The notes under the pieces were generated by a model, which was given only the letters and a program-made list of their open reading frames with translations, searched no databases and had not been told where the DNA came from. A stretch of 63,679 nucleotides of DNA from Terramyces sp. JEL0728 (taxonomy: Eukaryota; Chytridiomycota; Chytridiomycetes; Rhizophydiales; Terramycetaceae). Positions 417-63,679 of the stretch are shown here, piece after piece (position 1 is the stretch's first letter; every line of letters begins with the position of its first letter). The stretch spans positions 1-63,679 of the forward strand of contig JADIIU010000078.1 of NCBI GenBank assembly GCA_027603945.1, read 5' to 3'. Made by a program: the position numbers and the translations under genes.

Positions 417-837
417 TTATTGCTGGGAAGGCATATTATGGTGATAGTGTTGGCTCTCCAAAAACTCTTCCCACGAAATTTTCCCGTCAGAATTAATATC
501 ATCTTCACTCAACGTATGTTCAATCATGTATTCTAAATCTGCAACTGGAATTTCTTCAGTTAGTGGTTCATCATATACTCCGTACCCTTGGAAAGCTAAT
601 GCGAGCTCATGCCCATCCCTATATTAACAGTGGTTACAAGTGACCGTCCTTGTTGTAATCATGTAATGAAAAAAAGTAGAATGGCGATTCGTTATCGTCC
701 GCATTCTCATCCCCCGTTGCTTTTTTGAATTGAGCGCTTGATTTCTTTATATTTCCATAGTTGGATTCCTCCGTATCATATTCACCCCCAAACTTTTTAC
801 AAAATGCAAATGCAATCAAAATTGCTTTCAAGATCAT
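417..837 (-). CDS. Secreted EF-hand protein A (MCFD2-like)
   Basis: Exons 837-638 and 618-417 with a 19-nt intron (619-637) give 133 aa. The protein has a hydrophobic N-terminal signal peptide and two EF-hands. The first calcium loop, DYNKDGHLDGHE, is completed exactly by splicing; the second is DINSDGKISWEE. Short length, signal peptide and the FFSLHDYN lead-in resemble MCFD2, the calcium-binding cargo-receptor partner of LMAN1 in the early secretory pathway. That family placement is inference. A tandem paralog lies directly upstream at 902-1312 on the same strand and keeps the intron in the first loop, so the two arose by local duplication. Seen: loops, signal peptide, intron. Inferred: ER/Golgi lumen location and function. 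Confidence 0.8.
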
Positions 838-901
838 AAAGAGAAAAAAAGTTTATTCCTGATCATTGATAAGGTTATGATGATAGCTACATTAATAATG
901 G

Positions 902-1312
902 CTACACTTGAGATTCCAAATATTCCGCCCATGAGATTTTCCCGTTTCCATCCTTGTCATCTTCATCCATTGCATGGTCAATCATCCCTTCCAAATCTTC
1001 CAGATCATATTCGTTCTGCATCTCTTCCTGATCGTACAACTCATACCCCATCAGTGCCATTCCAAGTTCGTGTCCATCCAATTCGCCTTTCATTATATCT
1101 TTTTACCATCTAAATTAATCCAAAATACCCTTGTTGTAGTCGTGCAAACTAAAGAAATAGAAAACATCGTCCTTTTCGTCTCCGCTTGTTTCTGTATTGT
1201 GTTTTCTGAATGATTTCACGCTCTCATGATAATTCCCGTAGTTTGATTTCGACAAATCCACTTGTTTCTTTGCTAATACCAGTGAAAACAAGAAGAGCAG
1301 TGGAATCTTCAT
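902..1312 (-). CDS. Secreted EF-hand protein B with 3-nt micro-exon
   Basis: Exons 1312-1129, 1109-1107 (3 nt) and 1086-902 give 123 aa. N-terminal signal peptide, then two EF-hands. Introns are 19 nt (1110-1128) and 20 nt (1087-1106). With the 3-nt exon ATG the first loop reads DYNKDGELDGHE, a canonical 12-residue loop that matches paralog A (DYNKDGHLDGHE). Skipping it as one 39-42 nt intron would give an 11-residue, non-functional loop. The C-terminus ends ESQV; a further possible 21-nt intron (887-907, donor GTGTAG) would replace V with LSS and is less likely. Role as in paralog A: luminal calcium-binding protein by resemblance to MCFD2. Confidence 0.78.
1107..1109 (-). other. Predicted 3-nt micro-exon
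   Basis: Coding exon ATG (minus strand) between a 19-nt and a 20-nt intron. It supplies two bases of the Asp and one of the Gly in the first EF-hand loop of gene B. Support: it restores both frame and canonical loop length, and both flanking introns match the length and GTA...AG form of the other introns. Confidence 0.7.
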
Positions 1313-1443
1313 TTATTATGGGAAAATCATTTCAGATTAAAGTTGGATATGTGGCGTGGGAAAACACGAATACTATTTCGTAGTGCGATGAGTAAGTTCT
1401 CTCGCAGTAGTAAGCACGCAGCGACTAAAATAGGTCTGATTTA

Positions 1444-2151
1444 TTAAAAAAGAAAAATGTCATTTTGGGTAGTAAATACAGTGCGATCATTCAAGAAATA
1501 ATCATTCAATCCAAAAGGTCTGAAATTGGCTAATGGATCTTCAAAAGGAATAGGAGTATCATACATTGGTATTCCGATAGTAGTGTCTGACAGTGGATTC
1601 ATGGCAAACGAATCGAGGTACTGGCTCCACCCTATTACAGGACTATTACTGAATGTGCTGGCATCTGAAACGGAGTCGCAGAAAGAAGGACGCTTTTCCA
1701 AGCGAGCATCTAGGGCAGGACTAATGGATTCCTTCTTTTCTGGCAGATCAGCAAATATGCAGGTATCATTAGATGTTTCCGAGCAAGTTTCTTCCTGTAT
1801 AATCGGCATACTGGTTTCGAGGTTAAATAATCCTTTTTCTTGTAATCTGAGTCTACTTCTTTGCTTCTTTCCATATTTCTTGCTAGGCCACTTGAAATCC
1901 GGATATTTTTGCAGATGCAATTCTCTAGCAATCATTGCCAGTTTCTGATATTGACTGCGAACGCTTTCCGGTTCTTTGGCCCACATTTGGCCTGCAATCC
2001 TTGATACTTCGTGACTTTTGGTGGTGTTGTGTTTCTTTGTAATCTGCGATAACATTGCTTTCCTGTACACAAAGAAAGCATTTGGTGGTTTTCTTACGCT
2101 GCTTATTTGGGCGGCTACCACTTGAGTATCTTTAGCCATTATCTGATGCAC
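1444..2151 (-). CDS. MATA-type HMG-box protein
   Basis: Single-exon 235 aa protein. An HMG box of the MAT-alpha/sexP-sexM class spans about residues 20-95: it begins RKPPNAFFVYRKAML, continues SRIAGQMWAKEPESVRSQY and ends in a basic KWPSKKYGKKQRSRLR stretch that can serve as nuclear localisation signal. Such boxes bend AT-rich DNA in the minor groove. Proteins of this subclass include fungal mating-type determinants and other developmental regulators. The remaining C-terminal half is acidic and Ser/Thr-rich, typical of an activation region. A second Met at residue 5 could be the start. No other mating-locus gene (sugar transporter, RNA helicase of the sex locus) flanks it, so a mating-type role is not established. 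Confidence 0.85.
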   Translation of the reverse strand: MHQIMAKDTQVVAAQISSVRKPPNAFFVYRKAMLSQITKKHNTTKSHEVSRIAGQMWAKEPESVRSQYQKLAMIARELHLQKYPDFKWPSKKYGKKQRSRLRLQEKGLFNLETSMPIIQEETCSETSNDTCIFADLPEKKESISPALDARLEKRPSFCDSVSDASTFSNSPVIGWSQYLDSFAMNPLSDTTIGIPMYDTPIPFEDPLANFRPFGLNDYFLNDRTVFTTQNDIFLF

Positions 2152-3920: not shown

Positions 3921-4941
3921 TTGCTAGTGAGGAAATCTTTCAAAAAAAGTCAAAATCTCCGAATGAGAAGTTGCAGGACATTAGTTCTACTCATGTCGCT
4001 GGCAATTATGATTGGAGTATCGTTCTATCGATATCCTGATTTATACAATTTGCTGTTTGATAAAATAGCAACATATTTAGACCAGGATTCCAACAAACCA
4101 GATAGGATTGTAGCGGTTGGGGATTTACACGGAGACTTGGATAACAGTGTTAAAACATTGCGCATGGCTGGTTTGATTAACGAGAACAATGATTGGATTG
4201 CCGGCAAGTCAATATTTGTACAAACTGGAGATATAGTTGATCGCGGACCAGATACCATTGCTCTTTATAAATTGATGATGAAGCTGACTGAACAAGCGGG
4301 GAAAGCCGGAGGAAGAGTAATCAGATTCTTATATAGGTTGTTGAAATATTGGGAAACCACGAAGTTATGAATTTGCAAGGGGATTTAAGATATGTTACAA
4401 GGGAAGATTTTGAGTCATTTGGTGGATATGAAAATAGAGAAAAGGTATGGTCTGAAGACGGCTGGATTGGCAAGTACATACGCACTTTGGGGATATCCGC
4501 TTGGATAAACGGAACTGTTTTCTTTCATGGAGGGTAACCATTACTTACAGCAGCGCAACCGCAGAGTGGGCAAACCTGCATATAGAAGGGCTGAATGATA
4601 GAGCAAAAAAGAACATGCATGAACCTAGAGATCCGATTTTTGGCGGTGATGGCCCTTTATGGTATAGAGGATATGCTCAGAATCCCGAAAGCAGAGAATG
4701 CGGCCATCTGGACAAGGCACTCAGACTGTTGAATGTATTGCTAGTTTAATTACAGGCCACGCGACTGGTAATTGGGCACACTCCTCAGCCAGGGCACATT
4801 CTTACCCGCTGCAACAGTAGGATTTTTGTTATTGATGTTGGAATATCCCGGGTGTATGGCGGCTATTCTGCAGCGCTGGAAATTATAGGAGATCAGGTGT
4901 TTGGGCTATATCCAAACAAGAGAATAAAGTTGACCAAGTAA
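3921..4941 (+). CDS. Shewanella-like (SLP) metallophosphatase
   Basis: Exons 3921-4316, 4337-4533, 4554-4734 and 4756-4941 give 319 aa; introns are 20, 20 and 21 nt. A signal-anchor (LVLLMSLAIMIGVSFY) near residues 20-36 precedes a calcineurin-like phosphoesterase fold. The metal-binding motifs appear in order: GDLHGD, GDIVDRG, GNHE and, in the last exon, GHTPQPGHI. GNHE is split from the preceding beta-strand by the first intron and is only restored by splicing. The layout matches Shewanella-like protein phosphatases, which are secretory or membrane-tethered Ser/Thr or Tyr phosphatases in plants, protists and some fungi. The substrate is unknown. An alternative start is Met15. Confidence 0.85.
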
Positions 4942-5133: not shown

Positions 5134-5777
5134 ATGCGTGAATACAAACTTGTTGTCTTGGGTTCCGGAGGTGTCGGTAAATCTGCCCTCGTAAGCGATA
5201 AGCTAACTGTAGACGGTTCAATTTGTACAATCGATTTTCGTGGAAAAATATGACCCAACTATTGAAGATTCTTATCGTAAACAAGTAGAAATTGACGGTC
5301 AGCAATGTATGCTTGAGATTTTGGATACTGCAGGAACAGGTAGGTTTTACTTTACTCAGAACAATTTACGGCAATGCGTGATTTGTACATGAAGAATGGA
5401 CAAGGATTTATTCTTGTATATTCTATAACTTCACAAGCAACGTTCAATGATTTGGTAGAGCTCCGAGAGCAAATCCTACGTGTAAAAGATACCGATAAAG
5501 TATTCAATAGCTGATATCCAGGTTCCTATGGTTCTAGTAGGAAACAAATGCGATTTGGAAGACGACCGTGTTGTATCAAAAGCCGATGGACAATCATTAT
5601 CTGCGAAATGGGGCGGATGTACATTTTTAGAAAGTAGTGCTAGAAAAAAAATCAATGTAGACGAAGTTTTCTATGATCTTGTAAGACAGATCAATAAGAC
5701 AATGCCAGACAAGGTACCTCGTCTGTAATTATTAGGACAAGAAAAAAGAAAAAAAGAAGGGTTGTCTGATCCTCTAA
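5134..5777 (+). CDS. RSR1: Rap1/Rsr1 Ras-family GTPase
   Basis: Exons 5134-5190, 5213-5339, 5360-5499, 5522-5713 and 5736-5777 give 185 aa; introns are 22, 20, 22 and 22 nt. P-loop [10 protein letters not shown], effector loop [11 protein letters not shown], switch [15 protein letters not shown] (the Thr after DTAG is Rap-specific), NKCD and ESSA guanine-binding motifs are all present. The last exon adds a lysine run and the CAAX box CLIL, whose final Leu predicts geranylgeranylation and membrane attachment. This is the yardstick for the tiny introns: every splice restores a residue conserved in Rap/Rsr1. In yeast Rsr1/Bud1 directs polarity-site selection. A Ras-family GEF is encoded 8.7 kb downstream (14441-17330). 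Confidence 0.95.
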
Positions 5778-5831: not shown

Positions 5832-8019
5832 TTAAAGTTTTCCACCTTTTGCCAGGTCTTGTTTCATTGATTGCGCGATTGAGTATGCTACAGAGTAGGT
5901 AGTGAGCATAGGGCTATGTTAATCAAATATTACTTTACACCACTGGCAGTAGGGAATACGCTGGCATCCGCGACATACACTCCCTGCAGGTCGTATAACT
6001 CGCCATTAGGCTTGACTGCACCATCAGACTTTTTCCCTGACATTCTGCAAGTACTCATTTGATGCGCAGAAAAGATGGTCATTTTTTCAGTGTTTACACC
6101 GGATTTATGCACTCTTTTGAGAAAGTCTTTGTATTCATTGGAAGCAAGAGTCTGTTCAGGAGTGTGGGCTGGATTCTTTTTGAAAGGAGGAACATCGGAT
6201 TGCGTAGTATAGACTTCTGTTGCGCCAGCAGCTAGAAGTGCACTTAATCCAACTTCGAATCCTTGAGCCATGCTGACTTTATCAGCATTACCTAATTTCC
6301 AATTCAACCGTCCATTATTATCGCCGTCAATATATATTTGCCCTTCAGAGTCTTTGTCTCTAGTAAGCACGATTACGGAGACGGTGTGGGGCCAATTAAG
6401 GACAGATCGCTTGTGCCCTTTACTCGATTCCCATTTTTGACACCCAGTATACATGGAAGGATGAGAAGCTGGGATTTCTAATATTAAATACAACACACCC
6501 AATCTTGCGCCGTAGCCTTGTCCATCCGCATTTGCAACTTGGTTAGACAAAGTGGTCATGATTGAACCCTTATAGGACAAAATATCCTTGTCGGGGAAGA
6601 TACCAAAGACTGTAGTGACCGGATGCACTCTCAGGTGCTTTCCAACGTGGGTAGAAAGGCTGGGGATTTTGGATTTCAGCAATATCACAGGAGTATTCAT
6701 TGATCCAGCAGACAAAACAACTTTTTTGGAATTGATTCTGACGGGTTTTCCATTCTTTAGTGCCAATACACCTACTGCCTTTCCGTTTTTGTGTAATACT
6801 TGTTCCACCTGAAGATCACTGATAAACCTGCAACCTGCTTCTGCTGCATCCTTAATCCAAGTGAGAGTAGATGATAACTTTCCACCGTTTGGACAACCAA
6901 ATGTACAGAACCCACACTGATGGTCTTGTCCACCTGTATTTTGAGGAATAGCAGTAACATGATAGCCTAATTTCTTGCAGCCTTCATAAAACAAACTATT
7001 TGGAGTATTGTGTTTGTCTGGCTGCACTACACCAACTCTTGCTTTTGCAACATCAATCGAATTTTGGAACTCTGGAGTAGCAAAATGTAAAAGTCCCCAT
7101 TTTTCAGCCCATTCTTTGCGAGTGATCTCAGGGAGTTCCAAAGAAGCAGACCTACTGTTATTTCTGGTTACCAGTTAATGGCAGATCCACCGCCAAAAGT
7201 TTTCCCCGCCAAAATCAAAATTCCACCGTCTTCGGAGTAGTAGCCGCCTTCCTTTTCATAGTAACTAGAAAATGAAGCCTTTTCTTCTAGTGAATAGTCA
7301 GACGGGTGCACATAACTGCCTTTTTCAACGATAATCACGTTATAACCTGCTTTTGATAGTTCAGCTGCTAAAACACCACCACCACATCCAGAACCAACAA
7401 CTACCACATCGCATTCAAGCTGGACTTCCTTTTCAGATTCAAGAGGGCCGTCAATATTCATAAATTGCGGTCGCCAAATTTTGGATGCACGATGAGCATT
7501 TATTTCCATTTCCTTGACCGGCCCATGATACTTTAATGCGTTCCATGCTTTGTTTTGTTTTTCATCATCGTAGGTTCCGTATGAATGCAAAATAGAGACA
7601 AGTCTGAATATTCTGAAGAGCAATCGCAAATCAGATAGGTAGCTGTTGCTAAGAGCAAGCAACACCTTTTCACGATCATCCCTGGCCATATCAGGGAATG
7701 GTTTCAATCCAACTCCGCCAGAGAGAATGTAGGTTCCTAGTGAGGTTGACAAACTTGACAAAATAAAGTTGATTGCTGGCAGCTTATCCTTTGGAACTGT
7801 CCTGTTCATATATTCTTCTATGACAGATCCAGCATTTTTCAAATGAGAAGAAGTCTTGAATTTGTATAGTGTCTCTCGATATGCTCCATCAACATGCAAG
7901 CTTGGATCGATGGCATTCAAATACGCTGTTTCATTTTCAGATATTTCCTGTGGATTCAATTCGGCGACAAACGTATCGGCGATTGCTTCTAGTACTGCAG
8001 CGATTGCTGATTTCTGCAT
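5832..8019 (-). CDS. FAO1: Long-chain fatty-alcohol oxidase (GMC family)
   Basis: Exons 8019-7172, 7151-5934 and 5913-5832 give 715 aa; both introns are 20 nt. FAD-binding Rossmann motif GSGCGGG at about residue 210, the FAO hallmark QCGFCTFGCPNGGK, and the GMC C-terminal catalytic segment FSAHQMSTCRM are present. The last intron splits the Asn codon of SGVNPM; without it the protein would stop just before the end of the FAD-binding domain. FAO enzymes oxidise long-chain alcohols to aldehydes with O2, giving H2O2, in peroxisomes or ER membranes (omega-oxidation). The C-terminal GGKL is not a classic peroxisomal targeting signal. Confidence 0.92.
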
Positions 8020-14440: not shown

Positions 14441-17330
14441 ATGAGAGAAGTGCTGGTAGTAGCTCTCTACGACTACGAATCTACAGAGGAGAGCGGCCTC
14501 TCATTCATCCAAGGCGATGTTATCCAGGTCTTGCAGAGATTACCCTCTGGTTGGTGGGATGGGATGCTAAACAAAAAACGAGGATGGTTATCAATAATTC
14601 ATCATAGGTTTCCTTCAAATTATGTTACTCTTCCAGAATTGAAATTTGAAGACAGTATACAGGAACCAAACGAACTGGAATTGCCGTCTAGTCTAGCTGG
14701 GAATTGGGGAATAAAACCAACTGCTAATGGGAAATCATTTAAAATCAGCAAGAGGAATACTTTTGATGATTTGCCTGATGGCGAACTCTCTTCTTCAAAT
14801 ATTGTATTTACTTGGGGAGGACTTTCAGTTTTCATTATCTCCAAAATCAAGTTTCTTATCAAGGATGTTCACGAGGACAAAAAGGAAGCTTATATACAGG
14901 ACACTTCGACTGTAGTTGAAGCCATTAGGATAATGCTACACTCTTCCAATATGGCTGATCCCAACAGTTGGATTTATAGCGATTATCCTCACCTAAAGCA
15001 ATTACAAGCAATCATTATTAATTGGAATGGAAGATTGATATTGGCTGCTAAATTGGCCGCTACCGTCTGGCCCCCTCCTGAAGCTCAAGATCAATTATTA
15101 CATGCTTGTCAAGAATTAATAGGTGCAGTAAGACAATTCGCAACTGAATGTGGCTCATTGAATATCAAAATAGTCCATCCGCCAGCAGAAGAATTGGTTC
15201 AATATCAGAAAGAGTTTGGGAACCAAAATACAAACATGGTGGCAAAATTAGAGGAATTAGTAATCAGTTTGGTTGATATGGTTGGATACCTTGAAATTCA
15301 ATATGTCAAGGATATTAATCAACTTGCCACAAGATTATCTGGTGTCAACCTGGACAATTCTATTCAGGATATTATCAAAGCAGTTGCGAATTTCATGTCT
15401 ATTGTTGACGAAATCCCTCTTGATTCACTCTTTGAAGACTTGACTGTTGATTTCAAAGTCAATAGATTAACGCTATTAAACTGCGTAACTGATTTGTCAA
15501 CAAGAGCAAAATTAACCAATGTGAACCAAACACTGATTAGTGTTGAATTGGTACACAAGGCAGTCAAAGATTTGCTGATCTCAACAAAGTTTTTGATTGA
15601 AGAAAAGGAAAATATGGAAAATTCGACTCTTCAGAATTATATTGACCAGCATAGTGCTCCTGCGCCGAAAACTGCTAGTAGAGGACTCCGACATGCTGCG
15701 TCGCTAACATTCAATGAAGCAAATCACTATAGAAACTCACTTCAACCGACTTCGCCTGTCCCTTATTCTGCAGCAGATAGCACAAGTTCAATTCCATATT
15801 CTGGCGGGTCGGAAAAGAGACCTTCCATTGCGTTTGATTCGCCAGTTGGCAGTCCTGGAGCAGATTTCCAAAATATTGCGCTTTCCATTCGAAATTCTCG
15901 GCTATCTTCTGATCAAGGAAGGTATTCTATCGAAGGACGTAGAGTATCTAATATCTCTGCAGCTTCCAAAGTATCTTCTAATGCCTGGTACTTGTCTCAG
16001 GATTATCAAACTCAAGATATAGTAATCAATAACGATGGACTGGTTGTGAGTGGAACGATTAAAGCACTTGTTGACCGTCTTACTACACATGAAGGCGTCG
16101 TTGATTTACGATTCCTAACTACCTTTTTGATTGGATATAGAACGTTTACTAATAACCAAGAGCTTTTTGGTTTATTATTTGAACGGTTCATCCTGCCAAT
16201 GCCAAATGGTTTAACCGCAGACGAAGAGATTGTGTGGATTGAAAGAAAGCAAAAAGTAATTAGACAGCGGGTTTATGGTGTGTTAAAGATGTGGGTTGAG
16301 TCATTTGCATTAGATTTGGAAGAAGATCGATTTTCATTGAACCGAATTGCAGAGTTTATAGAAAAAACAATGAAGAGCGCAATGACAGTATCTTCCACAG
16401 CTCTTCTCCGATTAATAGACAAAAAGAGAACCTCGGGGTTCCAGCCTTTCCAACCACCATCTGCACTACAAAAAGACAAATTCCCAGATCCAATCCTTCC
16501 AAAAAGCTTGAAAAAGTTCAAACTTTCTGAAATTGATCCACTGGAAGTTGCCCGTCAAATTACCATTATGGAATTCAAAATATTTAAGGAAATCAATGTT
16601 GCTGAATTGTTGGCAAAATCGTGGGGATTGAGGGCACCAATCCCAAAGAATATTGATTTATTAATTGGGTTTTCCAACCATATTACTGAATGGGTTACAT
16701 GGACGATATTAAATGTGTCTGATGTAAAGAAAAGAGCGCGAATGGTTGGCTTCTTTTTAGCGGTTGCAGATGTAAGTTTTAGTTGATTATAGCGATGTGC
16801 ATCACTCAACAATTATAGCGGACTGACGGCTATTTTGGCTGCGTTCAATGCAGAGAAATTAGCCAGACAATCTCGTACATGGAAAGAACTCAGTTCCAAA
16901 TACCATGATGTGTTGAAAGCACTCCGTCACTTGATGTCTGCAGATAACAACTTTGCAGCATACAAATCCACGTTATATAAATCCACACCGCCCTGCATAC
17001 CATTCATTGGCATCTATTTACAGGACCTAACGCTATTAAACGAAACAGTTCTTACAAAATCACATGTATCCAACCACATCAATTTCAACAAAATCAACAA
17101 AACCTATGATATAGTCCATCTTCAATTAAAATTCAATGCGCCATACTATCTTAAAGTAGTACTTGAGGTCGAGGCATTCTTGCACGATCAAATCATGACT
17201 GACAGATCAGAGAGGGAAATGGAAAATCTATCATTGATGCACGAAGGGTTACAGTAAGTTTTTTCTAATTAGTAATGATGATTTAGTCGAACAGCAACGG
17301 TACCTGCTCGCCAACGCAGGTTTATTCTAA
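14441..17330 (+). CDS. SH3-RasGEF (CDC25 family)
   Basis: Exons 14441-14586, 14608-16771, 16793-17253 and 17273-17330 give 942 aa; introns are 21, 21 and 19 nt. SH3 domain at residues 4-55 (ALYDYE ... GWFPSNYV), a degenerate WW-like segment (NWGIKPTANGKSF), a helical middle, RasGEF-N at about 523-640 and catalytic RasGEF at about 690-915 (LDPLEVARQ-type start, LNNYSGLTAILAAFN). The first intron lies inside the SH3 at GW/FPSNYV; it is 21 nt with no stop, so reading through inserts seven residues without breaking frame. The order SH3, RasGEF-N, RasGEF matches yeast Cdc25/Sdc25, activators of Ras/cAMP signalling. The local partner could be the Rap1 at 5134-5777. Confidence 0.9.
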
Positions 17331-19218: not shown

Positions 19219-20346
19219 TCATCGTCTGTCTGGACTATCTTCATTCACGCTGGATTAAATGAAAATACCTTATTATCCCTACCAGTATGGTCATATCATC
19301 TACTTTACCACCTTGATAATAAAAACCCTCTTGGATGGCTCTATTTTGAAATGGGGAAGTTGCGTATCGATTATCCTCAGCAACAGCTCTTGCTTTTCGT
19401 AGCAGAGCGTCGGCCATTTGCTGCGGGTCGCTAATCTGTATATTGGAGTGCGTGTGAGTTGCAATGATATCCACAATCTCTTCGTCAAATACGTTATCAA
19501 ACAGACCGTCAGAGCCTAGAATCACAATATCTCCTTCTTGAATCTTGACAGTAAAGCTCTGGGTATCGTTTGGGGAATCTCTAGAAACTGTTCCGAGTTG
19601 GAATGGAAAGTTGAAAGAATGCTGTTGTTCTTCACTTCTGAATATTGGCTCGCCTCCTCTGATTATCATCACTGCACAATCACCAATATTTGCAATTCGC
19701 AATTCGTCTTCCTACAATCAAAATAGAAATACTCGTAGCAATAGTATCATCACTGTCGTTGATCCAACAATATTCTCTTTCCTTGCATCTGAATTCACCA
19801 TTTCATAACTCTTTTTCAAAATGTCTTTTGGCGATACTGAATTGTATTCCGGTAATGTTAAATCAATTTCTCCACTGAAATCATCATATTTTTCCAATTC
19901 TTGTCCGGCGTAATGCATTAATTTTAGAGAATAGAGAGCCGGGTTGGCGCCATTTGTTATAGAAGGATTACCTTTAACGTCTGCCCATCCTCCTACTCCG
20001 TCGGCAACTCCCATCGAATCATACCGCTGGAAAAATGCATCTTCTCCAACTTGTATTGAAATGTACGGGTCAACTGGTCTTGGAATTATAGGAAGATCGG
20101 TTGATTTAGGTTTCGCTGAAGCCCCGGTAATAAATCGATAGCTCTTCTTTTTGGGGAGCTGTGTAAACGGCTATCATCAGTAGAAATTACTTTGTCTATG
20201 AGGCCCAAAATCGAAGGCTTTTGAGGTTCTTTCTGTTCTAGTAGGACCGGAGTGGGTTTGAATGAATGAAATCTTCTTGGAATGTATCTTATTTTGGAAT
20301 TTCTAGCTCGAGTGAATATATATTTCGTCGCTTGCCTCGTCGACAT
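19219..20346 (-). CDS. PTC7: PTC7-type mitochondrial PP2C phosphatase
   Basis: Exons 20346-20192, 20171-19733, 19711-19269 and 19249-19219 give 355 aa; introns are 20, 21 and 19 nt. A basic N-terminus (MSTRQATKYIFTRARNS) predicts mitochondrial import. PP2C motifs appear in order: YRFITGASAKPK, GVADGVGGW, LRIANIGD, GSDGLFDN and DDMTIL, with the metal-binding Asp residues present. Reading through the first intron hides the conserved YRFITG start of the fold. Yeast Ptc7 dephosphorylates Coq7 and supports coenzyme Q synthesis. The final 19-nt intron (19250-19268) is likely but not certain; without it the tail ends RYFHLIQRE. The gene is divergent from the LEKR1-like gene, with 48 bases between starts. 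Confidence 0.9.
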
Positions 20347-22450: not shown

Positions 22451-25037
22451 ATGAGCGCGCACGGAAAGAAAACAGAAGTAGCGCTTCCGTCTCTAGTAGT
22501 TGCAGATGAGGAGTGGACAAAGCTGTTGGCAAAGAACGGAATGAAAAGTAATTTATGTATTAACATCAGTTGTGGACGTGTTTTGTATTTTCAAACTTAC
22601 ATAGCAAAATGGGCAGGACCGTGCGAAGCAATGAATTCAATTTTGAAGAGATTAAAAGTAGAATATGGAGAAGAGCTTGCTATTTTTCAAGTAAATCTCG
22701 TTAATACAGGCTCAATCAGATTCAATCGAAGGATTAAGAAATTTCAGAGACAAGTCGAGTCCTACGTTTTTAATCTTCTTTGTACTTGCTTTTAATGCTA
22801 GAACGATATTCTTGTTCAAATTGTTCATGGTGCGAATTCTCCATTAATCGAAAGAGTATTCAAGGAACAAGTTGATTTGGAAAGAAACGGCAGACCTCAC
22901 AAGCCAGTAAATTATTATTGATATCCAGGTGGAAGGAGATATACAGCTGGTGCCGGCTGAGGAAGTGAGACCATCGGTAGTTGAACCAGAAGGCAGAAAA
23001 TCCCAATATCAACACATTCCCGACCCAAAGCCAGTTTCCTCCAGCAACGAAGCTATTGCATCTCCATCAACTCCAGATAAACTTGCCGAAACATTTGCGC
23101 TCATTAAACCAGATGCAATGATCCCAGCAATGATTGAAGGGATTCTAGAACAGATCAGAGTTAAAAGATTCAGCATTGTAAAGAAAAAGAAAGTCTGGAT
23201 GACGCCAGAAGTCGTTGAGGAATTCTACAAAGAACACGTAAACCAGCCTTTCTTTAAGTCTCTCGTAACATATTTTACCTCGTACTTTTAATTAACAAAG
23301 TGGTCCTTGTTTGGCATTAGTATTATCCAAAGAAAATGCAGTGAAGGAATGGCGTGAACTAATTGGACCTGCAAACAGCAAGCAAGCAAAAGAGACAGCA
23401 CCTAAAAGTTTAAGAGCTCATTTCGGAACGGATAACAGAATTAATGCAGTTTTCGGATCTGATTCGCAAGAAAGTGCAAAAAGGGAAATCGAGCTTTTCT
23501 TTGGAGCAGAGAGTAAAGTTGTTGAACTACCAATTGATGAAAATGAACTATCTACTAAAAGTTCGCCTGGAATACAAAAGACACTTTGTATTATTAAGCC
23601 AGATGCTGCAAACCACAGAGAAGAAATTATCGAGAGGCTTATTTGTAGGGGTCTATTGATTTCAAAAAGGGAGGAGATGCATCTGAACAACCAACAAGTA
23701 GAAGATTTATATCATCATATCAAAGACACTGAAGCATTTCCACCTATTCTAGAACAAATGACAAAATCAACAGTCCTAGCACTAGTCTTGAAAGGAGATA
23801 ATGTAGTCAATATTTGGAAAGAATTAGCTGGCCCTGAAAACCCAGAAATAGCAAAGCAGCAGCTTCCATTTAGTATTAGAGCTTTGTATGGACACAATTC
23901 CATTTCGAATGGGGTCCACGCTTCGGAATCTGCAGAAAGAGCAACCCAAGAAATTCAGATTTTCTTCCCTTACACCCTCGAACGAGGACCTAGTGTTGTT
24001 GATGCCCGCTATGGAACTGCATCAAATCCATTCCCATTAGGCCATCATGGCTCTGCAGAAGAAATTCACGCAAGAACAGAACGAACCGTTGCGTTAATCA
24101 AGCCAGACGCATATGGCAGCGGTAAAAAAGATGCAATTCTTGAAAGAATTTCAACTTCTGAATTCAAAATTATTAAAGCAGCAGAAGTGCAGTTTAGTTT
24201 GGCTCAGGCACAAGAGTTCTATAAGGAACATCACGGCAAGCCTTTCTTTGATGAACTTGTCAATTGGATGAGTGGGTAAATTTCAATTAATGACAGAACT
24301 CCAATTTATGCAATTGTTTTGGAAAAAGAAGGTGCGATTGATGCTTGGAGAGAACTTGCGGGACCAACCAATTCCATCAAAGCGAGAGATATTGCTCCTC
24401 AAAGGTAATTGAAGGTAATGCTAGTATTCGCGCTTTATATGGAACTGATGGCTCACATAATGCGGTGCACGGTTCTGATTCTCCAGCGTCTGCAGAAAGG
24501 GAAATTAAGATAGTGTTTGGAGATCAAGTTTCACCTTTCCCTGAACCGCTGTTAGGTGCCGAGCAGCAAGTTGAAGCGGAGGAAGTTCCTCCAAGACCAA
24601 GTCAAGCAGCAGCCCGTTCGTCAGTAGTCGCAGCGGAAAATGTTTTGAATTTAATACTTGGAAATGAAAATAAGCAAGGGTCTGTACCTAATGTGATGGA
24701 AAAGTCTGGATCAAAGGCACAACTATCAAAGTCAAAACCAAACCTTGCTTCCAGGACAAATCTTGCTGGCGAAGGTGCAAAACAAGGCTCAAAGACAAAT
24801 TTAAGTGGGTCAGAAATGAAACGTGCAATTTCCTCACACTCAGTCAAGAATTCCAGACCTGGATCTGCAGCAAATTTAAACAAATCAAAAACAAATTTAG
24901 GTTCTAAAGCCAATCTGGGATCTAAATCAAATTTGGCTAAAAATTCAATTCCTGACGTTGAACCAAATATTAAAGAAAAACCTGCTGAAGAAGTACCACA
25001 AGGTGACTCTGCCAGTGTTCCAGCCCCAGCCGAGTGA
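22451..25037 (+). CDS. Thioredoxin-NDK protein (NME8/TXNDC3 type)
   Basis: Exons 22451-22547, 22570-22584 (15 nt), 22605-22690, 22710-22781, 22802-22906, 22929-23281, 23301-24275, 24297-24404 and 24425-25037 give 807 aa; eight introns of 19-22 nt. An N-terminal thioredoxin fold is followed by three NDK domains (ALIKPDA, IIKPDA, ALIKPDA) and a low-complexity tail with NL-spaced repeats (SKTNLGSKANLGSK). This matches NME8/TXNDC3, an axonemal protein tied to dynein arms. The thioredoxin site is WAGPC, so the first Cys is Ala. NDK1 has NAVFGSDS, with the catalytic His replaced by Phe; NDK2 (NGVHASES) and NDK3 (NAVHGSDS) keep it. Likely structural plus partial kinase activity. Confidence 0.92.
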
Positions 25038-43628: not shown

Positions 43629-46244
43629 ATGCGCGTTTTCTGGCTGCTGCAATATGTAACTGCATGGTAATTGAACTTAACTCAGCGGGTACAAGTTACT
43701 AATACAAGAATGAGTACGCACGAAGAAATAAGCCATGAAGCTCTGTATTTTCTGAATTTGCTTGACAATTCAACCGTTAATATATTGCAAGACAACAAAG
43801 CATATTTAGAATCTGGATCGTACTTTCCTGATTGGTAATCAATCTGTAATTAGGGGTTATTCGTGTGCAGGAGCATCAGCCGAATCCGAGGAAGGTTAGA
43901 TTTGCTAACTGTAGCTCACTGGCCCCGGTTTTGGAATTACTCTTTGAATTACATACGTCAAACGTATGAAAAACCATACAGTGATGCAGCCCAAGGGCTG
44001 ATTGCATTTTTATTCGGAACAATATCTCACGGTGTAAGCGATGTCTTGTGGCATTCATTAGGACTGGAGCAAGGATTCATTGAAGTAAGCAACGTTTAAC
44101 GAGGCTATGAAATATGCGTTTTATGATGGAAATTATCAGAATAGCCATATGGATGCTGATATCGGAGGAGATTTGATGATTGCGCGTTTTGGTTATTTGG
44201 CATATTTGCAGGTAATATTCTTATGACGCAGCCATACTGGAAGATACCCACACTGGATTTAATCAATATTTATCAATTAATGGGTTACGAGGTCTCGTAC
44301 GGTGAATTGAACCTCTGTATTTTGCAAGGATATGCGGGAGTCCAGGGAAATAGATTGATTGGAAGATACGCATTACCAAACTTTGCTGCACGATCGCCGT
44401 TTTTAGTAGAAAAGTATTTTACGTATTTCAGGGGAGGTATTCATTCAATGGCGGTTGCGGTTGCTGAATGTTGGATTAGAATGTTCCAATCGCTAGAAGA
44501 CAGTGTTTACAGAGAATGCGAGCACATGGGGACTGCATACGAAACGCGGTCAGTTGCCAGTTCATCTTATACTGAAGATTATGACACATGTGTAAAGAAC
44601 AATTCAAACTACGCTGGATACATTATCTCTACTAACGGGTCACTGTCGCTTAGAGGCACACTGGCCTCAACGTTTATTAATGCCTTTTGCTTTTATTACT
44701 ACTCGCCAGGATTAGAGCAGGACAATGATTTTACTCCAGATCCATACTCTTGGATGGACATACCACTGCTTAGATACCCTTATATGATGCTGCAAGGCGC
44801 AGCTAGTCATGTTCTCTCTTGGTTTGATTTCAAATGTGCAAGTAATTCAGCATCCACTGTGTTTGTTACGCAGGTAGAGTATGCAAAATTAGGATCATCA
44901 ATAGCAACCGGAGATTTTACTGGAGATGGGCAGAAAGACTTGGTAATTGGTGCCCCTGGATATAGTTCAAATGGATTTGTGCAAAACGGAGCTGCATTTT
45001 TGGTGCAAGATGCAGCCAAATACCACAAATATGCAGGAACAATTGAACAAATATCCACCGTTATATCCTTTTGCAATGAAGATGGTGCCCAGTTTGGATA
45101 CAGTCTTGCAGTAGTAGATTACAATAGAGACGGAATCGACGACTTGGCAATTTCAGCTCCATACACTGGCCAATCGGTAGACAGGTTTGATGGAAAAGTG
45201 TTTATATTGCTTGGTAGCAAATCTGGACTACGAATCGACGGACAGTGGGATATCGTTATTGATGCTACCCAAACTGATGGGCCATTTAGAGTGTTTGGAT
45301 ATAGCCTATATAGCTTTGATTTAGACAATGACGGATACCTAGATTTAATATCTGCATCACCTCTAGCCTCCTTTGCCTCTGGTAACCAGGTAATTCTTAT
45401 TAACTATAGAGAGGGCAGGTCCAGGCATTTTTGTCAAAGAATAGCTTTTCTAATAATGTGACAATTGATGATGCGGATTGGACGTTGATTGGCAGCCAGG
45501 ATTATGAATGGTTCGGGTCGTCAATCACATTACTGGAGAGGCAGATAATAATTGGTTCACCAGGATACTCTGTTGTTGGTGATTCGACAAAGTCGTCGGG
45601 GAAAATCACTAGCTACAATCTAGACAAAACAATCAATGGTCGACCCACCTATAACAACTCCATTGCGGAAACAAGAGATTTTTCGCAATTTGCAGAAAGC
45701 GTTGATACAATCCACAATGCAACGCAGAATATTATAGTTGGGTCCCCTTCGAAAACCAGCAAACTTGCCAGAAACAGATTCATGAACCTTCCGGGGTTGG
45801 TTATACCTTTTGGTAAAGAGGGTTACCAAGCTGGCCAAGTAAAGGTATTTGACTGGCAATCAACATCCAAGCTGCCGCTATCGACCATCCATGGTACAAC
45901 CACCTTGGGCCATTTTGGTTCGCAAGTGCACTCTTCAGCAAAAGGCATATTCGTTTCAGAGCCGCTCGTGGATGGAGGTACTTTTCCAATTAACCCAAGA
46001 AAAAGGTAGGCTGTTTTACATACCAAATCAAAATATTATCCAGGGAGAGTACAGGGTGGATTCGGTTTACGAGAAATGTTGGTGTGGCAAGTACAAAGAA
46101 GGGTTTGCAAGCACTTTTGTTGCAACGGATATAGATAATAATGGGAAACTCGACATTATCGTTTCCTCAAGGAATAACTACAGGTTGAGCTGGGGTTCGG
46201 GGCTGCTATCGGGAAAAGTGTCTATAATTTGGGATGCTGTGTAG
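43629..46244 (+). CDS. GPLD1: GPI-specific phospholipase D
   Basis: Exons 43629-43666, 43686-43688 (3 nt), 43709-43834, 43854-43894, 43915-44084, 44104-44211, 44232-45389, 45410-45977 and 46000-46244 give 818 aa; eight introns of 19-22 nt. A signal peptide (MRVFWLLQYVTA) leads into CGMSTHEEISHEAL, matching CG(L)STH at the mature N-terminus of animal GPI-PLD. The zinc-dependent PLC/PLD fold follows (FGTISHGVSDVLWHSLGLEQGF), then FG-GAP/integrin-like propeller repeats with calcium-binding DxDxDG motifs (DFTGDGQKDLVIGAP, DYNRDGIDDLAISAP, DLDNDGYLDL). GPI-PLD cleaves GPI anchors, releasing surface proteins. Secreted. Confidence 0.92.
43686..43688 (+). other. Predicted 3-nt micro-exon of GPLD1
   Basis: Exon CGG between 19-nt and 20-nt introns. 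It completes Cys and supplies two bases of Gly in the conserved CGxSTH motif that joins signal peptide to mature enzyme. Without it the signal peptide and catalytic frame do not connect. Confidence 0.72.
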
Positions 46245-52831: not shown

Positions 52832-52920
52832 ACTTCAATAAAACCTGTGTTTTGGACTTTGAATTTCTTTATTTTATGTGTTTAATCTACAGCTGGAGAA
52901 CGGCTTCAAAGTGTGTTTAC

Positions 52921-52940
52921 AATAACCATTTATGGTTATT
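52921..52940. repeat. Perfect 9-bp inverted repeat
   Basis: aataaccatttatggttatt: 9-bp arms with a 2-nt loop, followed by another aatggttat. It is nested inside a wider ctggaga ... tctccag pair (52892-52898 and 52949-52955). It lies between array genes 2 and 3 and could be a transcription-end hairpin or a binding site. Confidence 0.5.
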
Positions 52941-53081
52941 AATGGTTATCTCCAGCCGGTAATTCGTTAGAGCTCCATTGAGCTTTACTTTCTTGAAGCT
53001 GTCCATTATCTATCCCTTGTGGTAAAATTTTCATTCATCATGGGAAGAAAATTATCTGAAAAGTTTTTTCCCTAAGCAAAA

Positions 53082-53954: not shown

Positions 53955-54063
53955 TCTGCGCTCTACGAGAGTATTTTGATTTCGAACCAATATAATTCGT
54001 GAAAGGATAATTTCAAGTTTTAAATTTTTGCATAATATATTATTCGCCAAAACACGGAGTACA

Positions 54064-54945: not shown

Positions 54946-55021
54946 GTTCAAATAAATTATCCCAATTTCAATCATTCTCGATAAAATGGTGCAGATCAAA
55001 TTTTTCCAAAACACGGTTGCC

Positions 55022-56249: not shown

Positions 56250-56284
56250 ATTTGGTATATTAGAATTACCACATGCGTTCAGTG

Positions 56285-59200
56285 TTAAAAGTACAGGGAT
56301 GCAGCGAAAACGATATCTCTTCGAATGAGCTCGGCTGCTTCTTCAACCTTACGGTACAACCCAGCATCGCCGACAAGCCTTGCAGCACCACTGACTTCCC
56401 TGCAAGTTTCACTCAACCTGACGATACACCTAACTATGCTGCCTTCTAAAACATCAGTTAATTCGGTAATTTGCTTGAAAGGTAATCCCCGGGCCCATTC
56501 ATAGACAACTTCAACTAGTCCAAATTTGAGCGACTTTAAAACATCTTCTTCGTGGATATCTATCCCACACGCACGCTGAATTTGAGCGATTTTGACTGCC
56601 AATTTCTGAATATCTTTGATCCCTCGTTCCAAATTTGGTGTAAGCACAGGCTCGCTATCACTTTTCTCTTGGAACACAAAACAGGACAAGAGCGCAACAA
56701 TTTCTGCTGGCTCGTAATCGCTCAAGAAATTGTCAAGGATAAGCTCAGTCAATATTAATTCATCAGCAGTATTAATCTAAATTAATAAGTCGGTACTTCG
56801 CATGCAACCCGTCCTTTGATTTGCACAATTGCATTCTGATCAATGAACCCAAGCTCTTTAAGCACTTCAATGCGTTGGTGGTAATCAGGCAGCAATTCCA
56901 AGTTCATTTCAGAAAGATTTTGCTCAAGACCTTGTAATTGTTCGCGGAGCATGCGCTCTTTATGGACAATTGCATACTAGGATGAAAAAAAGATTACATG
57001 TGTGACAAGACTAGGACATAGACGACACTGGTACTTTTGCATCTGCAGTAAACACGCCTTCTTTTCTCTATATTGCTCTTGGAACTCTATATCTCTGATT
57101 TTACTCCAGTCATATTCAGAATATCCTTCTTTTTGTAGCTCAATGCCAGCATCATGTAAAATAAGCATAGTTTCCTTGATTGCACCAGATTTCTTTAATG
57201 CCATGATTGATTCTTGGTCTACTTTGATTTGCTTTGGAGTTACTACTGCTATGGTCGTGTAAGATAAACACTCAATGGCGTGGTTCAAGTCTGAACGTGG
57301 TGGAACCGAAACACTAGTTACTGGAAGGGCGGAAAGTTCTACATTAACAAAAGGTACCTGCCCCGCTAGCATCGTGTATATCAGTCAGGATAAACAACCA
57401 AAAGGTTTTTTCATTTCTGGTACTCATAGTCTGCTTACCCAGCGATGTGCTACTGATATTCCTAGTTGCCGTTTCCGCTGTTTGAACCACATTGCTAGCT
57501 CCAGATTTGAGGATAACAGCAAGGGCATTACGATACATTTGGTTGTTGATAATAACTACTCTGCCTTGAGATAGAGCCTTCATTCCAACCGAACTGTTAA
57601 CAATTTTTTCTTGCATCGTGTAGCCCAAAGTCAGTACACGGTAAGACACATCATAGAACAATTCAATGTCGCTATTACATATCGTGCAATCCAGCTTTTC
57701 CATACTCTGTAGTTTCTTTGAGCCTTCTAACAAAGCCCGTTCATGTTCAGGCAGTGCTTTCTGGGTTGAATTTTCACTAAACGATCGTTTAATCATATCC
57801 TCAACTTTGATTGCCTCCACGCGCAATAAATTCAAAATCATATTGTACGTTACTCTAAATTGCGATTCAAGTTTAGTTGGTCTACCGAGAATCATCTGCC
57901 GCACATCGATTTCGTCCGGAACTTTGTCATTGCATGCAATTATAACCATTCCGGTAGCATCAAGGCCTCGTCTACCAGCCCTGCCGCTCATTTGCGTATA
58001 TTCACCAGGGAGCAGCTGCCTAAAGTTTTGTCCGTCGTGTTTACGAATCATAGCAAATACCACCGATCTTGCTGGTGCGTTGACTCCCATAGCAAATGTT
58101 TCAGTTGCAAACAGGACTTTGACTAATCCGCGAGTAAACAAAATTTCTACAATTTCTTTTAGAATTGGCAATAATCCAGAATGGTGGACTGCAATGCCCC
58201 TAGACAAAAGATCCCTCATTCGCAGTATTTGTGGCAATTCCTTATCTCCCCCTTTGAGACAAGCTATACTGTTTTCAATAAAAATATGAATCTGCGCCTT
58301 TTCTGAAGCTCCTGTTGATAAATCCATATTTGTCAGCGCTTGAGCATATTCTTCGCATTTTTTCTTTGAAAAGGCAAACACAATAACTGGTAAAAGACTC
58401 TTTTTCTTTAGGTAGCTGATGAGATTAATGTACACATTCTTGTCGGTTGAAATGTTGCTATTTCGTCCACTGGAATTTGCAGGTCTAGTTACTTGATTGC
58501 CCCGACCTCTTCCCCGTCCTCTGCTGGTGTCCGCTTTGTCTTTTTTGGGGTTAGCAATATCATAAGCGTCTTTGTATCCTTTGGCAATAAAGTTTTTGTT
58601 TGCATCAACTATTTTGTAGGTATCTTTATCAATAAACAAGTGATGTTCTAGTGGTACTGGTCTCTTCAAAGTTGAAATTACATAGATATTCTTTTGTTTA
58701 GTCCTTCCAACCCAGTCTGCAAACTCTTTTGTATTTGGGACTGTGGCAGATAAAAGAATCAAGTTAACATGAGCAGGTAACATGATAATTACTTCTTCCC
58801 ACACTACGCCTCTTTCAGAGTCATTAACATAGTGCACTTCATCAAAAATTACAAATTCTACATCCCGTATTAGATCCGCTCCGCGGTAGAGCATACTTCG
58901 TAGAATTTCCGTAGTCATTACAAGGCATGATGCTTCTGGTTTGATTTGGATGTCGCCCGTAAGGATCCCTACATCTTCAAATGTTTCTTTGAAATCTCTG
59001 TATTTCTGGTTAGACAGCGCTTTGATTGGTGATGTGTAAATAGCTCTAGTCATATGTTTCTGTGCCAGCGCAATAGCATACTCTGCAACCACAGTTTTAC
59101 CTGCCGATGTATGAGCAGCTACAAATACAGATTCAGATTGTTCCAAATAATATACAGCCCTCTTTTGAAATACATCTAATTCAAACGGATAGGCAAATGC

Positions 59201-60014
59201 CATTTCAGGTACAAGATCATGAAACTCGGGGAAATCCAGATTAACGTCAATCATATGTGCCCAATCTTTTTGTGCTCTTTTCTGTGGTTTTGCCGTGATG
59301 ATTAAATCTGTCTCTGGCAGCAATTCATCCACATCTTTTTCATCCTTAATTTCTTGTACTATTTCCTCTACCTTTTCTTCCTCTTGTTCTTCAAATATAA
59401 AATCTTGGCCGGCAAATAAAGCAGAGATGTCCACTGAATTTTCCGTGTACTCTAAATTTAAGCCTCTGTCCAACCCAGGTGCTATTTGCGACAATTCATC
59501 AAACAAGTCTTCATTTACTTGCTTTTCATCCAGCTCTTGCGGTAATGAAATACCACCCGGCATGAATGGATAGTGGGTTGTCTTTCCTCTAACGAAATCA
59601 CTATTCTTTGTGGGATCTGCGTGAGTAAGGATTACCTCTTTGTAGTGAAGTTGAATTCTTTGCATTTAATTCGTTACTATCCAAATAATTCAATTTGAAA
59701 TTAGAAAAATCCAATTCGCCATCAAAATCCCTCTTGATTTCCAAAGAAACTAAATTCTTGCTTGTCCCAGAAGGTTTGATCAAACTATGAACATCTGGCT
59801 GCCTTTCCCAGTGCCTTGGTTTTAACTTGTTTTTTATATTTGGTTTCAAGTATTCTGAAAGGTCGTTTTGCAGTGTAAACGGACCTAATCCAAGGTTTAA
59901 TTTTAAATTATCGGCAAGGACCATGTTACCGCTTGTTCCCCGATGCTGGAATAGCGGCAGTTCATTGGTTTCTTGTTGCGTTTCTATCGTCTCCAAATAA
60001 TTTACAAATTCCAT
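56285..60014 (-). CDS. SKI2: SKI2 superkiller RNA helicase
   Basis: Exons 60014-59636, 59616-57358, 57338-56998, 56976-56797 and 56776-56285 give 1216 aa; introns are 19, 19, 21 and 20 nt. The N-terminal segment (RQPDVHSLIKPSGTSKNLVS; NSTSLQRDPTKNSDFVRG) is specific to Ski2 over Mtr4. Helicase motifs: AHTSAGKTVVAEYA at about residue 290, FDEVHYVND at about 385, SATVPN and QMSGRAGRRG at about 670. An arch insertion and the C-terminal DSHCT domain ending RRDIVFAASLYF follow. Ski2 with Ski3/Ski8 feeds 3'-5' mRNA decay by the cytoplasmic exosome. Each splice restores conserved sequence. Confidence 0.95.
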
Positions 60015-62674: not shown

Positions 62675-62845
62675 TTAGAGAAAATATTGGTTGTTTGTTT
62701 TAAGGCATTGGGCTTTTGGAGCAGGAGTGACTCGAATCATGTGAGAATCGCAGATTTCCAAAACGTGATTTGGTGGGGGCTCCTAAGATTGCGCGATCGT
62801 ATGTGAGGTGTGTGTGCGAATAATGATCTAGCATCAAATATTTTC

Positions 62846-62999
62846 ATGTTTGTTTGTCTGACCCTGCAAGAACCAATCTCAAACTGTAATTTTGTACCAA
62901 CGGCATGATTGGCCGCAAAGTTTCTTTTTCAAGAACCGTCAAAGAGGAAAGAAACGCTATGACCATGCCTACGCTAAAAAGATCTCGGCTGCAAATTAG
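62846..62999 (+). CDS. Possible small basic protein
   Basis: A tentative model with a 6-nt first exon (62846-62851), a 19-nt intron and exon 62871-62999 gives 44 aa. The frame FFFKNRQRGKKRYDHAYAKK is striking and resembles a ribosomal-protein tail, but I cannot assign it. The rest of 62675-63255 shows no supported gene. Confidence 0.25.
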
Positions 63000-63255
63000 A
63001 TTTGGTTTGTAAACGATTATTTATCGCCAGAACCAAGTCTATTGTATTACTTTTGACCAGTGAAATCTCGGACCGATGTCTTCAGCAAGGTCAAAGTATT
63101 GAGACAGTGTCGAATAAAGTTGCAAAAATCATATACTGCGAAAGATTCTCAAACAAACACTGCTGGCATACACTTTTACCAACTTGAAATTAATCAGCAC
63201 ATCGAACCGGCTTTGATTATCAATACACAGCGTACAGATCATGTTAAATAATATA

Positions 63256-63679
63256 TTAAATTCTAGTATCTCCAGTGATGTATACTGCGACTAGTGGCAA
63301 CCCAATCGCCGCAAATAGTACCATAAACCCTTGCAAGAATCGATACTTCCACACAGTGCCCGGCTGTTTTACTATATGGAACACTGGATTCTTGATAACT
63401 GAAGAGGTAGTTGAAGAAGCTACTGATTCAGCCAAACTTTCTGCAAATGAAGCCGTTGAGCCGCTATTCTAACATTAGAAAAGTTTACCATTTGCGATTT
63501 GAAATAAGCTTCGCCATCCATTGACGATCTGGATACTTGATTGCGCACTGCATTCATGGCTTTAGCTTTAACTATTCTCTTTTGCTCTTCGATTGTTACA
63601 TGGTTGCTTTCTAGATCCCCTTCAACAACTTTAGGATCAACCTCCCAAGAAACAAACCCTTTTTCTTCTCTGACGAGAA
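63256..63679 (-). CDS. Membrane protein, 5' end beyond window
   Basis: Partial gene: exons beyond 63679 to 63489 and 63468-63256, joined by a 20-nt intron, give 134 visible residues. A helical charged region (IEEQKRIVKAKAMNAV) is followed by a Ser/Thr-rich linker and a C-terminal transmembrane helix (FLQGFMVLFAAIGLPLVAVY) with a short end. The tail-anchor-like topology suggests an organelle membrane protein; family not recognised. Confidence 0.6.

Follow-up and report, generated by a model that had tools for sequence, protein, structure and literature searches.

Contig 78 and the length class of its introns

The window analyzed here, a stretch of 63,679 nt that makes up all of contig 78 of an assembly of 15,016,339 bases in 231 contigs, carries genes with predicted spliceosomal introns of only 19–22 nt. 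The gene content of the assembly included an NDK triplet protein (NME8-like by eye), an SH3-DUF7783-RasGEF protein, a class C G protein-coupled receptor (GPCR), Rap1, GPLD1 and a HYDIN/DLEC1-type gene (by eye), a set that fits a flagellated opisthokont without being specific; a zoosporic fungus or a relative would be the simplest choice. The introns were analyzed in the window together with 20 stretches of 10 kb each, drawn from 16 further contigs, a sample of 263,679 bases (17 contigs, 39% GC) covering less than 2% of the assembly.

In a first test, which used no gene model, the pattern GTA ... TAA[CT] ... AG was counted per length on both strands, with lengths of 40–120 nt as the baseline (mean 26.6, standard deviation 4.4). 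The counts were 97 at 19 nt (z = 16.0), 101 at 20 nt (z = 16.9), 50 at 21 nt (z = 5.3) and 36 at 22 nt (z ~2), and no excess was found at 23–120 nt in any GTA pattern scanned across the 264 kb (z ≤ 2.9). A two-dimensional spacing scan raised six cells, combining branch positions 14–16 with tails of 5–6 nt, which held 71, 57, 54, 36, 15, and 17 occurrences against a background of ~9, while branch position 13 was flat. Matches to this two-spacing ruler numbered 250 in the real and 79 in the reversed sequence.

The second test was a codon-usage decoder with a flat length prior and an equal cost for any GT...AG cut of 12–120 nt. It made 73 GT-AG cuts, 43 of them 19–22 nt long; with the decoy ends GC-AG, CT-AC, TG-GA, GA-AG, and GT-AC it made 55, 56, 61, 66, and 60 cuts, of which 2, 4, 3, 5, and 1, respectively, were 19–22 nt long. 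The third test was a decoder trained on its own output, with the GT donor and AG acceptor imposed and introns modelled up to 120 nt. An untrained first pass cut 45 introns of 18–23 nt. The trained finder predicted 254 introns of 18–25 nt in 189 gene models, 81 of which were intronless, corresponding to ~1.2 introns per kb of coding sequence. Lengths of 19–22 nt accounted for 250 of the 254 (74, 119, 44, and 13 introns, respectively), with one intron each at 18, 23, 24, and 25 nt, and a single intron longer than 30 nt appeared in the 264 kb. All 20 sampled stretches outside the window had predicted introns of the class, from 2 to 18 each. Nine other end pairs run through the same model as decoys yielded 13, 34, 31, 31, 19, 16, 21, 17, and 21 introns, 5–13% of the GT-AG number. 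As for the 250 ruler matches, 170 were predicted introns, 26 lay unused in same-strand gene models, 21 were antisense to models and 33 were elsewhere.

Such a class might be put down to indels from sequencing or to a gene finder that reinforces itself, given that the trained model derived from its own output. However, the two scans used no gene model, the flat-prior decoder knew only the GT-AG ends, the decoys of the trained model collapsed, and protein matches enclose at least 40 of the junctions (see below), so that we give an artefact virtually no credence and judge it already refuted. Chance, which a sequence-only reading of the window had called impossible on the strength of single genes, is excluded by the model-free length scan, the flat-prior decoder, the decoys, and the two-dimensional spacing scan.

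The best fit to these tests is that 19–22 nt spliceosomal introns form a general class, as that reading had proposed, and that it extends past the window. Most introns were shorter than 30 nt and fell in a narrow length range; no ordinary-length class stood alongside them in the 264 kb at lengths up to 120 nt, and the length plot had no peak at ordinary sizes within 23–120 nt. Extrapolated to the whole assembly, and provided that the sample is representative, there would be ~13,000 such introns genome-wide. The assembly is not fully haploid, because some stretches occur twice at ~98–99% identity: the pairs L063/L069, L065/L066, and L001/L002 were 98–99% identical at different places, and are either second haplotypes or recent duplicates.

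In the window, the ab initio finder predicted 57 introns (20, 25, 9, and 3 of 19, 20, 21, and 22 nt), ~9% of which may be false, and missed the four Rap1 introns and six in the 5' half of GPLD1, giving a total of 67 (23, 29, 9, and 6, respectively). The sequence-only reading had counted 79, un-itemised (24, 32, 12, and 10 of these lengths and one of about 28 nt); our length profile was similar, and the ~28-nt intron was not found.

Intron anatomy and position in conserved proteins

Among the 254 introns, the donor was GT throughout (imposed), with A at +3 in 92% (234 introns starting GTA, where the earlier claim for the window was all but four), A at +4 in 61% and T at +6 in 66%. At +5, T made up 49% and G only 16%, near background, and the commonest donor was GTAATT. 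The weak +5G is not a product of training, since the untrained pass (22% of 45 introns) and the homology-guided set described below (5 of 35) show it too. All introns ended in AG, as claimed before and as imposed by the finder; three decoy acceptors gave only 16–21 introns. The acceptor triplets were TAG (163), CAG (63), AAG (24), and GAG (4). Intron GC was 30%, phases 0, 1, and 2 were represented by 119, 76, and 59 introns, the last exon base was G in 43%, and the median internal exon was 237 nt (147 exons).

A branch-like element before the AG had been described as a property of the introns in general. One clear copy of T[AG]A[CT] was present in 191 of the 254, with several copies in 7 and none by the strict pattern in 56. 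In the 191 single-copy introns, the second A of the element was at position 14 (106), 15 (70), 16 (12), 17 (2), or 18 (1), never at 13 or below, and was followed by 5 (113), 6 (68), 7 (5), 4 (4), or 3 (1) nt, so that 181 had the branch A 5–6 nt before the intron end; an AG between branch and acceptor occurred in 4. Intron length follows from these two narrow spacings, donor to branch and branch to end, whose sums 14+5, 14+6, 15+5, 15+6, and 16+6 are 19, 20, 20, 21, and 22 nt. With branch A at 14–16 and a tail of 5–6 nt, donor, branch point, and acceptor are nearly superposed, in agreement with the sequence-only reading. A T-rich stretch (51%) occupied intron positions 5–9, upstream of the branch point. 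Relative entropy amounted to 18.0 bits in the 19-nt class, 13.9 bits in the 20-nt class, and 15.4 bits in the 21-nt class.

At least 40 junctions were placed inside protein-family or structure matches. They comprise 33 of the 35 introns of a homology-guided set, which lie in listed matched stretches, and seven more; the remaining two of the 35 are NME8-like intron 4, in an NDK repeat of unlisted coordinates, and Rap1 intron 4, which rests on a prenylation box. The scaffold subunit of protein phosphatase 2A (PP2A-A) had six introns (22, 20, 21, 21, 20, and 19 nt) and aligned to chain 9j5i_D over residues 5–589 with gaps only far from the junctions. CCT-zeta had four (19, 21, 20, and 20 nt) and aligned to chain 4b2t_Z over residues 1–455 with a single one-residue gap at 396/397, near the fourth junction (393). 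The four Rap1 introns of the sequence-only reading (22, 20, 22, and 22 nt) were upheld: a gap-free alignment of 167 residues to Rap-1b spans three, and removal of the fourth, whose +5 base is C, adds a C-terminal CLIL, presumably a prenylation box.

Removal of introns also joined split matches. On raw DNA the U2AF_lg model matched in two pieces (251.7 and 27.9 bits), with four stops read through in the larger; after removal of four introns it matched in one stretch with 334 bits, above the curated cut-off of 310.3. Likewise, SF1-HH rose from two pieces of 66.2 and 42.9 bits to 114.8 bits over the full model (1–114 of 114). Further junctions fell within Pfam stretches of SKI2, ATG5, a GMC oxidoreductase, a metallophosphoesterase, RasGEF, PP2C, NDK repeats, the class C GPCR (whose query sequence lacked a leucine close to the N terminus), two EF-hand proteins, and GPLD1, here in its zinc-dependent phospholipase C part; in these Pfam matches the junctions are placed by the limits of the matched stretch. 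Three of the genes on which the earlier reading had leaned, SKI2 (19, 19, 21, and 20 nt), ATG5 (two introns in the part modelled), and GPLD1 (eight introns), are among them. A search of solved structures with the first 248 residues of the GPLD1 product returned no match.

Table 1. Positions in the window of introns in selected genes and of two candidate 3-nt exons.
Feature	Length (nt)	Position	Strand	Basis
Rap1 intron 1	22	5191..5212	+	gap-free alignment to 3brw_D (Rap-1b), residues 1–167
Rap1 intron 2	20	5340..5359	+	3brw_D alignment
Rap1 intron 3	22	5500..5521	+	3brw_D alignment
Rap1 intron 4	22	5714..5735	+	C-terminal CLIL, presumed prenylation box
Metallophosphoesterase intron 1	20	4317..4336	+	in Pfam stretch 38–190
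Metallophosphoesterase intron 2	20	4534..4553	+	Pfam match, as intron 1
SH3-DUF7783-RasGEF gene intron	21	16772..16792	+	in RasGEF stretch 702–878
NME8-like intron 1	19	22691..22709	+	ab initio model
NME8-like intron 2	20	22782..22801	+	ab initio model
NME8-like intron 3	22	22907..22928	+	ab initio model
NME8-like intron 4	19	23282..23300	+	protein has three NDK stretches; repeat coordinates unlisted
NME8-like intron 5	21	24276..24296	+	in NDK stretch 517–651
NME8-like intron 6	20	24405..24424	+	in NDK stretch 517–651
GPLD1 intron 1	19	43667..43685	+	open frame from ATG 43629
GPLD1 candidate exon CGG, between introns 1 and 2	3	43686..43688	+	upstream of Pfam stretch
GPLD1 intron 2	20	43689..43708	+	gene model from ATG 43629
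GPLD1 intron 3	19	43835..43853	+	in Zn_dep_PLPC stretch 17–198
GPLD1 intron 4	20	43895..43914	+	Zn_dep_PLPC match
GPLD1 intron 5	19	44085..44103	+	Zn_dep_PLPC match
GPLD1 intron 6	20	44212..44231	+	Zn_dep_PLPC match
GPLD1 intron 7	20	45390..45409	+	ab initio model
GPLD1 intron 8	22	45978..45999	+	ab initio model
SKI2 intron 1	19	59617..59635	-	in Ski2_N stretch 67–188
SKI2 intron 2	19	57339..57357	-	in MTR4_beta-barrel stretch 802–1016
SKI2 intron 3	21	56977..56997	-	in MTR4_beta-barrel stretch 802–1016
SKI2 intron 4	20	56777..56796	-	in DSHCT stretch 1043–1211
ATG5 intron	20	35725..35744	-	in ATG5_HBR stretch 83–134
ATG5 intron	19	35618..35636	-	in ATG5_HBR stretch 83–134
PP2C-type phosphatase intron	21	19712..19732	-	in PP2C stretch 140–224
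GMC oxidoreductase intron 1	20	7152..7171	-	in GMC_oxred_N stretch 254–461
GMC oxidoreductase intron 2	20	5914..5933	-	in GMC_oxred_C stretch 551–698
EF-hand gene A intron 1	19	1110..1128	-	EF-hand match, paralogue comparison
EF-hand gene A candidate exon ATG	3	1107..1109	-	one residue of EF-hand loop
EF-hand gene A intron 2	20	1087..1106	-	EF-hand match, paralogue comparison
EF-hand gene B intron	19	619..637	-	EF-hand match, paralogue comparison

Two candidate exons of 3 nt were each flanked by one 19-nt and one 20-nt ruler-perfect intron. For that of EF-hand gene A, reading frame and motif make a good case: EF-hand_7 scored 33.0 bits with the predicted exon versus 23.1 if a single 42-nt intron was cut, EF-hand_1 scored 30.0 bits with it and was unlisted without it, and the paralogue at 417–837 is uninterrupted where gene A has the exon. 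For that of GPLD1 the case, which comes from the reading frame, is moderate: cutting a single 42-nt intron instead leaves an in-frame stop, and a start at a downstream ATG near 43710 is possible. Two such ruler-match pairs occurred in the real sequence versus none in the reversed sequence, a number that is unsurprising because random placement of 250 matches on 527 kb of strand predicts an estimated ~4 within 30 nt. A score-based pair scan returned no pairs, not even these two, and is hence uninformative either way.

Elsewhere in the window, genes for similar multi-helix membrane proteins, of which four were inspected, follow one another in a tandem array at 51001–55897 and have no introns. 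The one array member tested (53082–53954) and a membrane protein at 36525–37595 had no Pfam match. The SH3-DUF7783-RasGEF gene (14441–17257) has an apparent paralogue on contig 18 (L032, by eye). ARAGORN found no tRNA in the window, and nothing in the 264 kb attained the gathering score of an Rfam family.

Splicing machinery and recognition of the introns

The genome encodes a complete U2 small nuclear RNA (snRNA; 140.2 bits), in which the branch-pairing region GUAGUA and the GCUAAGAUC stretch are both preserved, as well as U2AF2, with two RRM_1 stretches and the family model matched over 68–507 of 510, near the C-terminal end, and SF1, with its helix-hairpin (SF1-HH) and KH domains. SF3B4-, SF3B6-, RBM39-, CBP20-, and Y14-like genes were also present (named by eye). 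Losses of the U2 small nuclear ribonucleoprotein (snRNP), SF1, or U2AF, which the sequence-only reading had suggested looking for, were not borne out in the parts tested, since U2 snRNA, U2AF2, and SF1 were all found. Together with the GT...AG ends and a branch element ahead of the acceptor, these components make it very probable that the segments are ordinary major-class (U2-type, GT-AG) introns at minimum size, fixed by two rigid spacings.

Several observations weigh against this conclusion. Excision of the segments is predicted here from genomic sequence. In the model-free scan the 22-nt class was weak (36 vs 26.6); the strict branch pattern is absent from 56 of the 254 predictions; and the decoy mean implies that ~9% of the 254 may be false. 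The 21-nt share is a lower bound, because the finder can read through introns that are a multiple of 3 nt and have no stop, which are therefore under-detected, and the in-frame stop seen in all 44 21-nt introns is thus partly forced; the modelled range of intron lengths ends at 120 nt. Finally, U1 and U6 snRNAs were not found in the assembly. For U1, RF00003 gave no match and an anchor pattern gave no site (control 2). For U6, RF00026 and four anchor patterns, two of which allowed an intron within U6, were used. Pattern 1 had 6 sites (control 3), none of them U6 by cmscan; pattern 2 had 19 (control 7), all inspected and none U6-like by eye; pattern 3 had none (control 0); and pattern 4 had 4 (control 2), of which only the matched letters were seen. 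RF00026 produced a pair of 27-bit matches (cut-off 44) at 1501–1605 of L001 and L002, near-identical 3.1-kb loci (similarity ratio 0.989), which keep ACAGAGA, lack the stretch that should pair with canonical U2, and were read as a repeat. U6 cannot truly be missing, and therefore the U1 and U6 search misses prove little; both are presumed to reflect an assembly gap or divergence.

Two routes without a spliceosome were weighed. Short, uniform, frame-breaking inserts in genes would at first look alike if they were internal eliminated sequences, cut from DNA, and the assembly an unprocessed genome. This is highly improbable, as the segments have GT-AG limits and, spaced rigidly between them, a branch element of U2 type, decoy ends collapse, and U2 snRNA, U2AF2, and SF1 are encoded; known eliminated sequences end in TA or other repeats. 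The failure to find U6 and U1 in the assembly would also suit removal from RNA by an endonuclease and a ligase, as for tRNA and XBP1 introns. Under such a route the branch element, the GT-AG ends, and the retained U2, U2AF2, and SF1 would have no role, and SF3B4-, SF3B6-, and Y14-like genes are present, so that we regard it as scarcely credible.

The unusual features sit on the 5' splice site side, where +5G is lost and U1 and U6 were not found. A normal U1 snRNA has ACUUACCU at its 5' end. A spliceosome without a canonical U1 snRNP, in which the tri-snRNP picks the donor directly by its fixed spacing to the branch point, would account for a +5G near background in both the 254 and the homology-guided introns. 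It is also in line with the lack of any U1 candidate from RF00003, the anchor pattern, a search for the U1-70K N-domain (0 candidates, a miss that is weak evidence), and inspection by eye of RRM matches for a U1-70K-like RRM (of 27, 25 were seen in full and one in part, all but C19:110521). The match C19:110521 adjoins an RBM39-like match. However, search misses are weak evidence, as U6, which cannot be truly lost, was not found either; in passages of PMC6461891 the Bigelowiella nucleomorph, with 18–23 nt introns, keeps a 102-nt U1, and in those of PMC9505925 U1 is retained in Stentor together with its three core proteins. We therefore consider it unlikely that this is an intron-dense nucleus without a canonical U1 snRNP, in which U6/U5 would choose the donor 13–15 nt from a U2-bound branch point and the 19–22 nt intron would be the ruler unit. 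If true, recognition would be strict enough for 3-nt exons between adjacent introns.

For ordinary U2-type introns of minimum size, we envisage that each intron would be recognized whole, as one composite motif (intron definition); 3-nt exons, where real, would require recognition across the intron. U2 would pair with the branch element, while U6/U5 would hold the donor, ~12 nt upstream. The sharp lower edge at position 14 may be a physical limit, the minimum linker with which the donor can still get to the branch adenosine in the catalytic centre: few free bases are left between the donor and branch helices, and a shorter linker would fall short. The 5–6 nt tail may be the minimum reach to the second step. 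There is no downstream pyrimidine tract, because only 2–3 nt separate the branch element from the YAG; the T-rich stretch that precedes the branch point might be the target of U2AF2, or the protein might work via protein contacts alone or serve elsewhere. The loss of +5G suggests that the donor is chosen mostly by its distance from the branch point, and strong U1/U6 pairing would then matter less than position.

Comparison with known ultra-short introns

Tiny introns are likewise the rule in ciliates, a different lineage, and those of Stentor are 15–16 nt long. In yeasts and protists such as Yarrowia, Trichomonas, and Giardia, the branch point and the 3' splice site are fused into one motif, with the branch A a few nt before the AG and a longer or variable distance between donor and branch. 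The introns described here resemble these in the closeness of branch A to AG, but both of their distances are rigid. Among other ciliates, Paramecium and Nyctotherus have introns of ~25 bp (PMC5014332), and the accessible part of PMC9505925 describes a largely conserved Stentor spliceosome with all five snRNAs reported.

For the chlorarachniophyte Bigelowiella natans, the available passages of PMC6461891 describe nucleomorph introns of 18–23 nt in which a motif at the 5' splice site could not be identified, and a U1 that is genuine, if shortened. The two systems share an ultra-short general class and a small genome, and the 5' motif, not identifiable there, is weakened here. They differ in that the nucleomorph is a relict algal nucleus with known U1 and U6, whereas here a 15-Mb assembly has flagellar-type and GPCR genes and neither snRNA was found. 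With regard to the 5' splice site classes discussed in passages of PMC11732430, where +4A is linked with the ACAGA box of U6 and with methylation of that box, +4A is kept here and +5G is lost.

Nucleomorphs and ciliates had been named as the known cases by the sequence-only reading, and this holds; mikrocytids were missing from its list. Its remark that fungi are not among them presupposes that the organism is itself a fungus, which is probable at most. Mikrocytos mackini and Paramikrocytos canceri have introns of 16–17 nt in parasite genomes, with 224 introns in 179 genes of M. mackini and only U2, U4, and U6 identified among mikrocytid snRNAs (passages of PMC10245619). Like theirs, the introns here are uniform, ultra-short, and spliceosomal; unlike those of these Rhizaria, they are 19–22 nt long at ~1.2 per kb of coding sequence.

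No report of such introns in fungi was found in the titles, abstract starts, and passages of the openly licensed literature, and a word search of the accessible text of a rozellid paper (PMC10716661) and a fungal genomics paper (PMC10406608) returned no mention of introns. A large survey of minor introns dropped introns shorter than 30 bp in all species (according to passages of PMC10639083); under such exclusion, the annotation of genomes of this kind would go wrong, and their genes would be taken to be broken.

Introns of this kind are already known in other lineages, and their shortness is therefore no record. As far as the literature was searched, what is new is the lineage, the combination of this intron density with a two-spacing ruler, and the retention of U2AF2 and SF1 without a downstream tract. 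The genome would add a further, apparently independent and probably holomycotan lineage to the handful with ultra-short introns, and its introns would serve as natural substrates, in the thousands, for gauging how small the donor-branch and branch-acceptor distances accepted by a spliceosome can be. It also poses a sharp question, in that U2AF2 and SF1 are retained here though the usual binding place of U2AF2 is gone.

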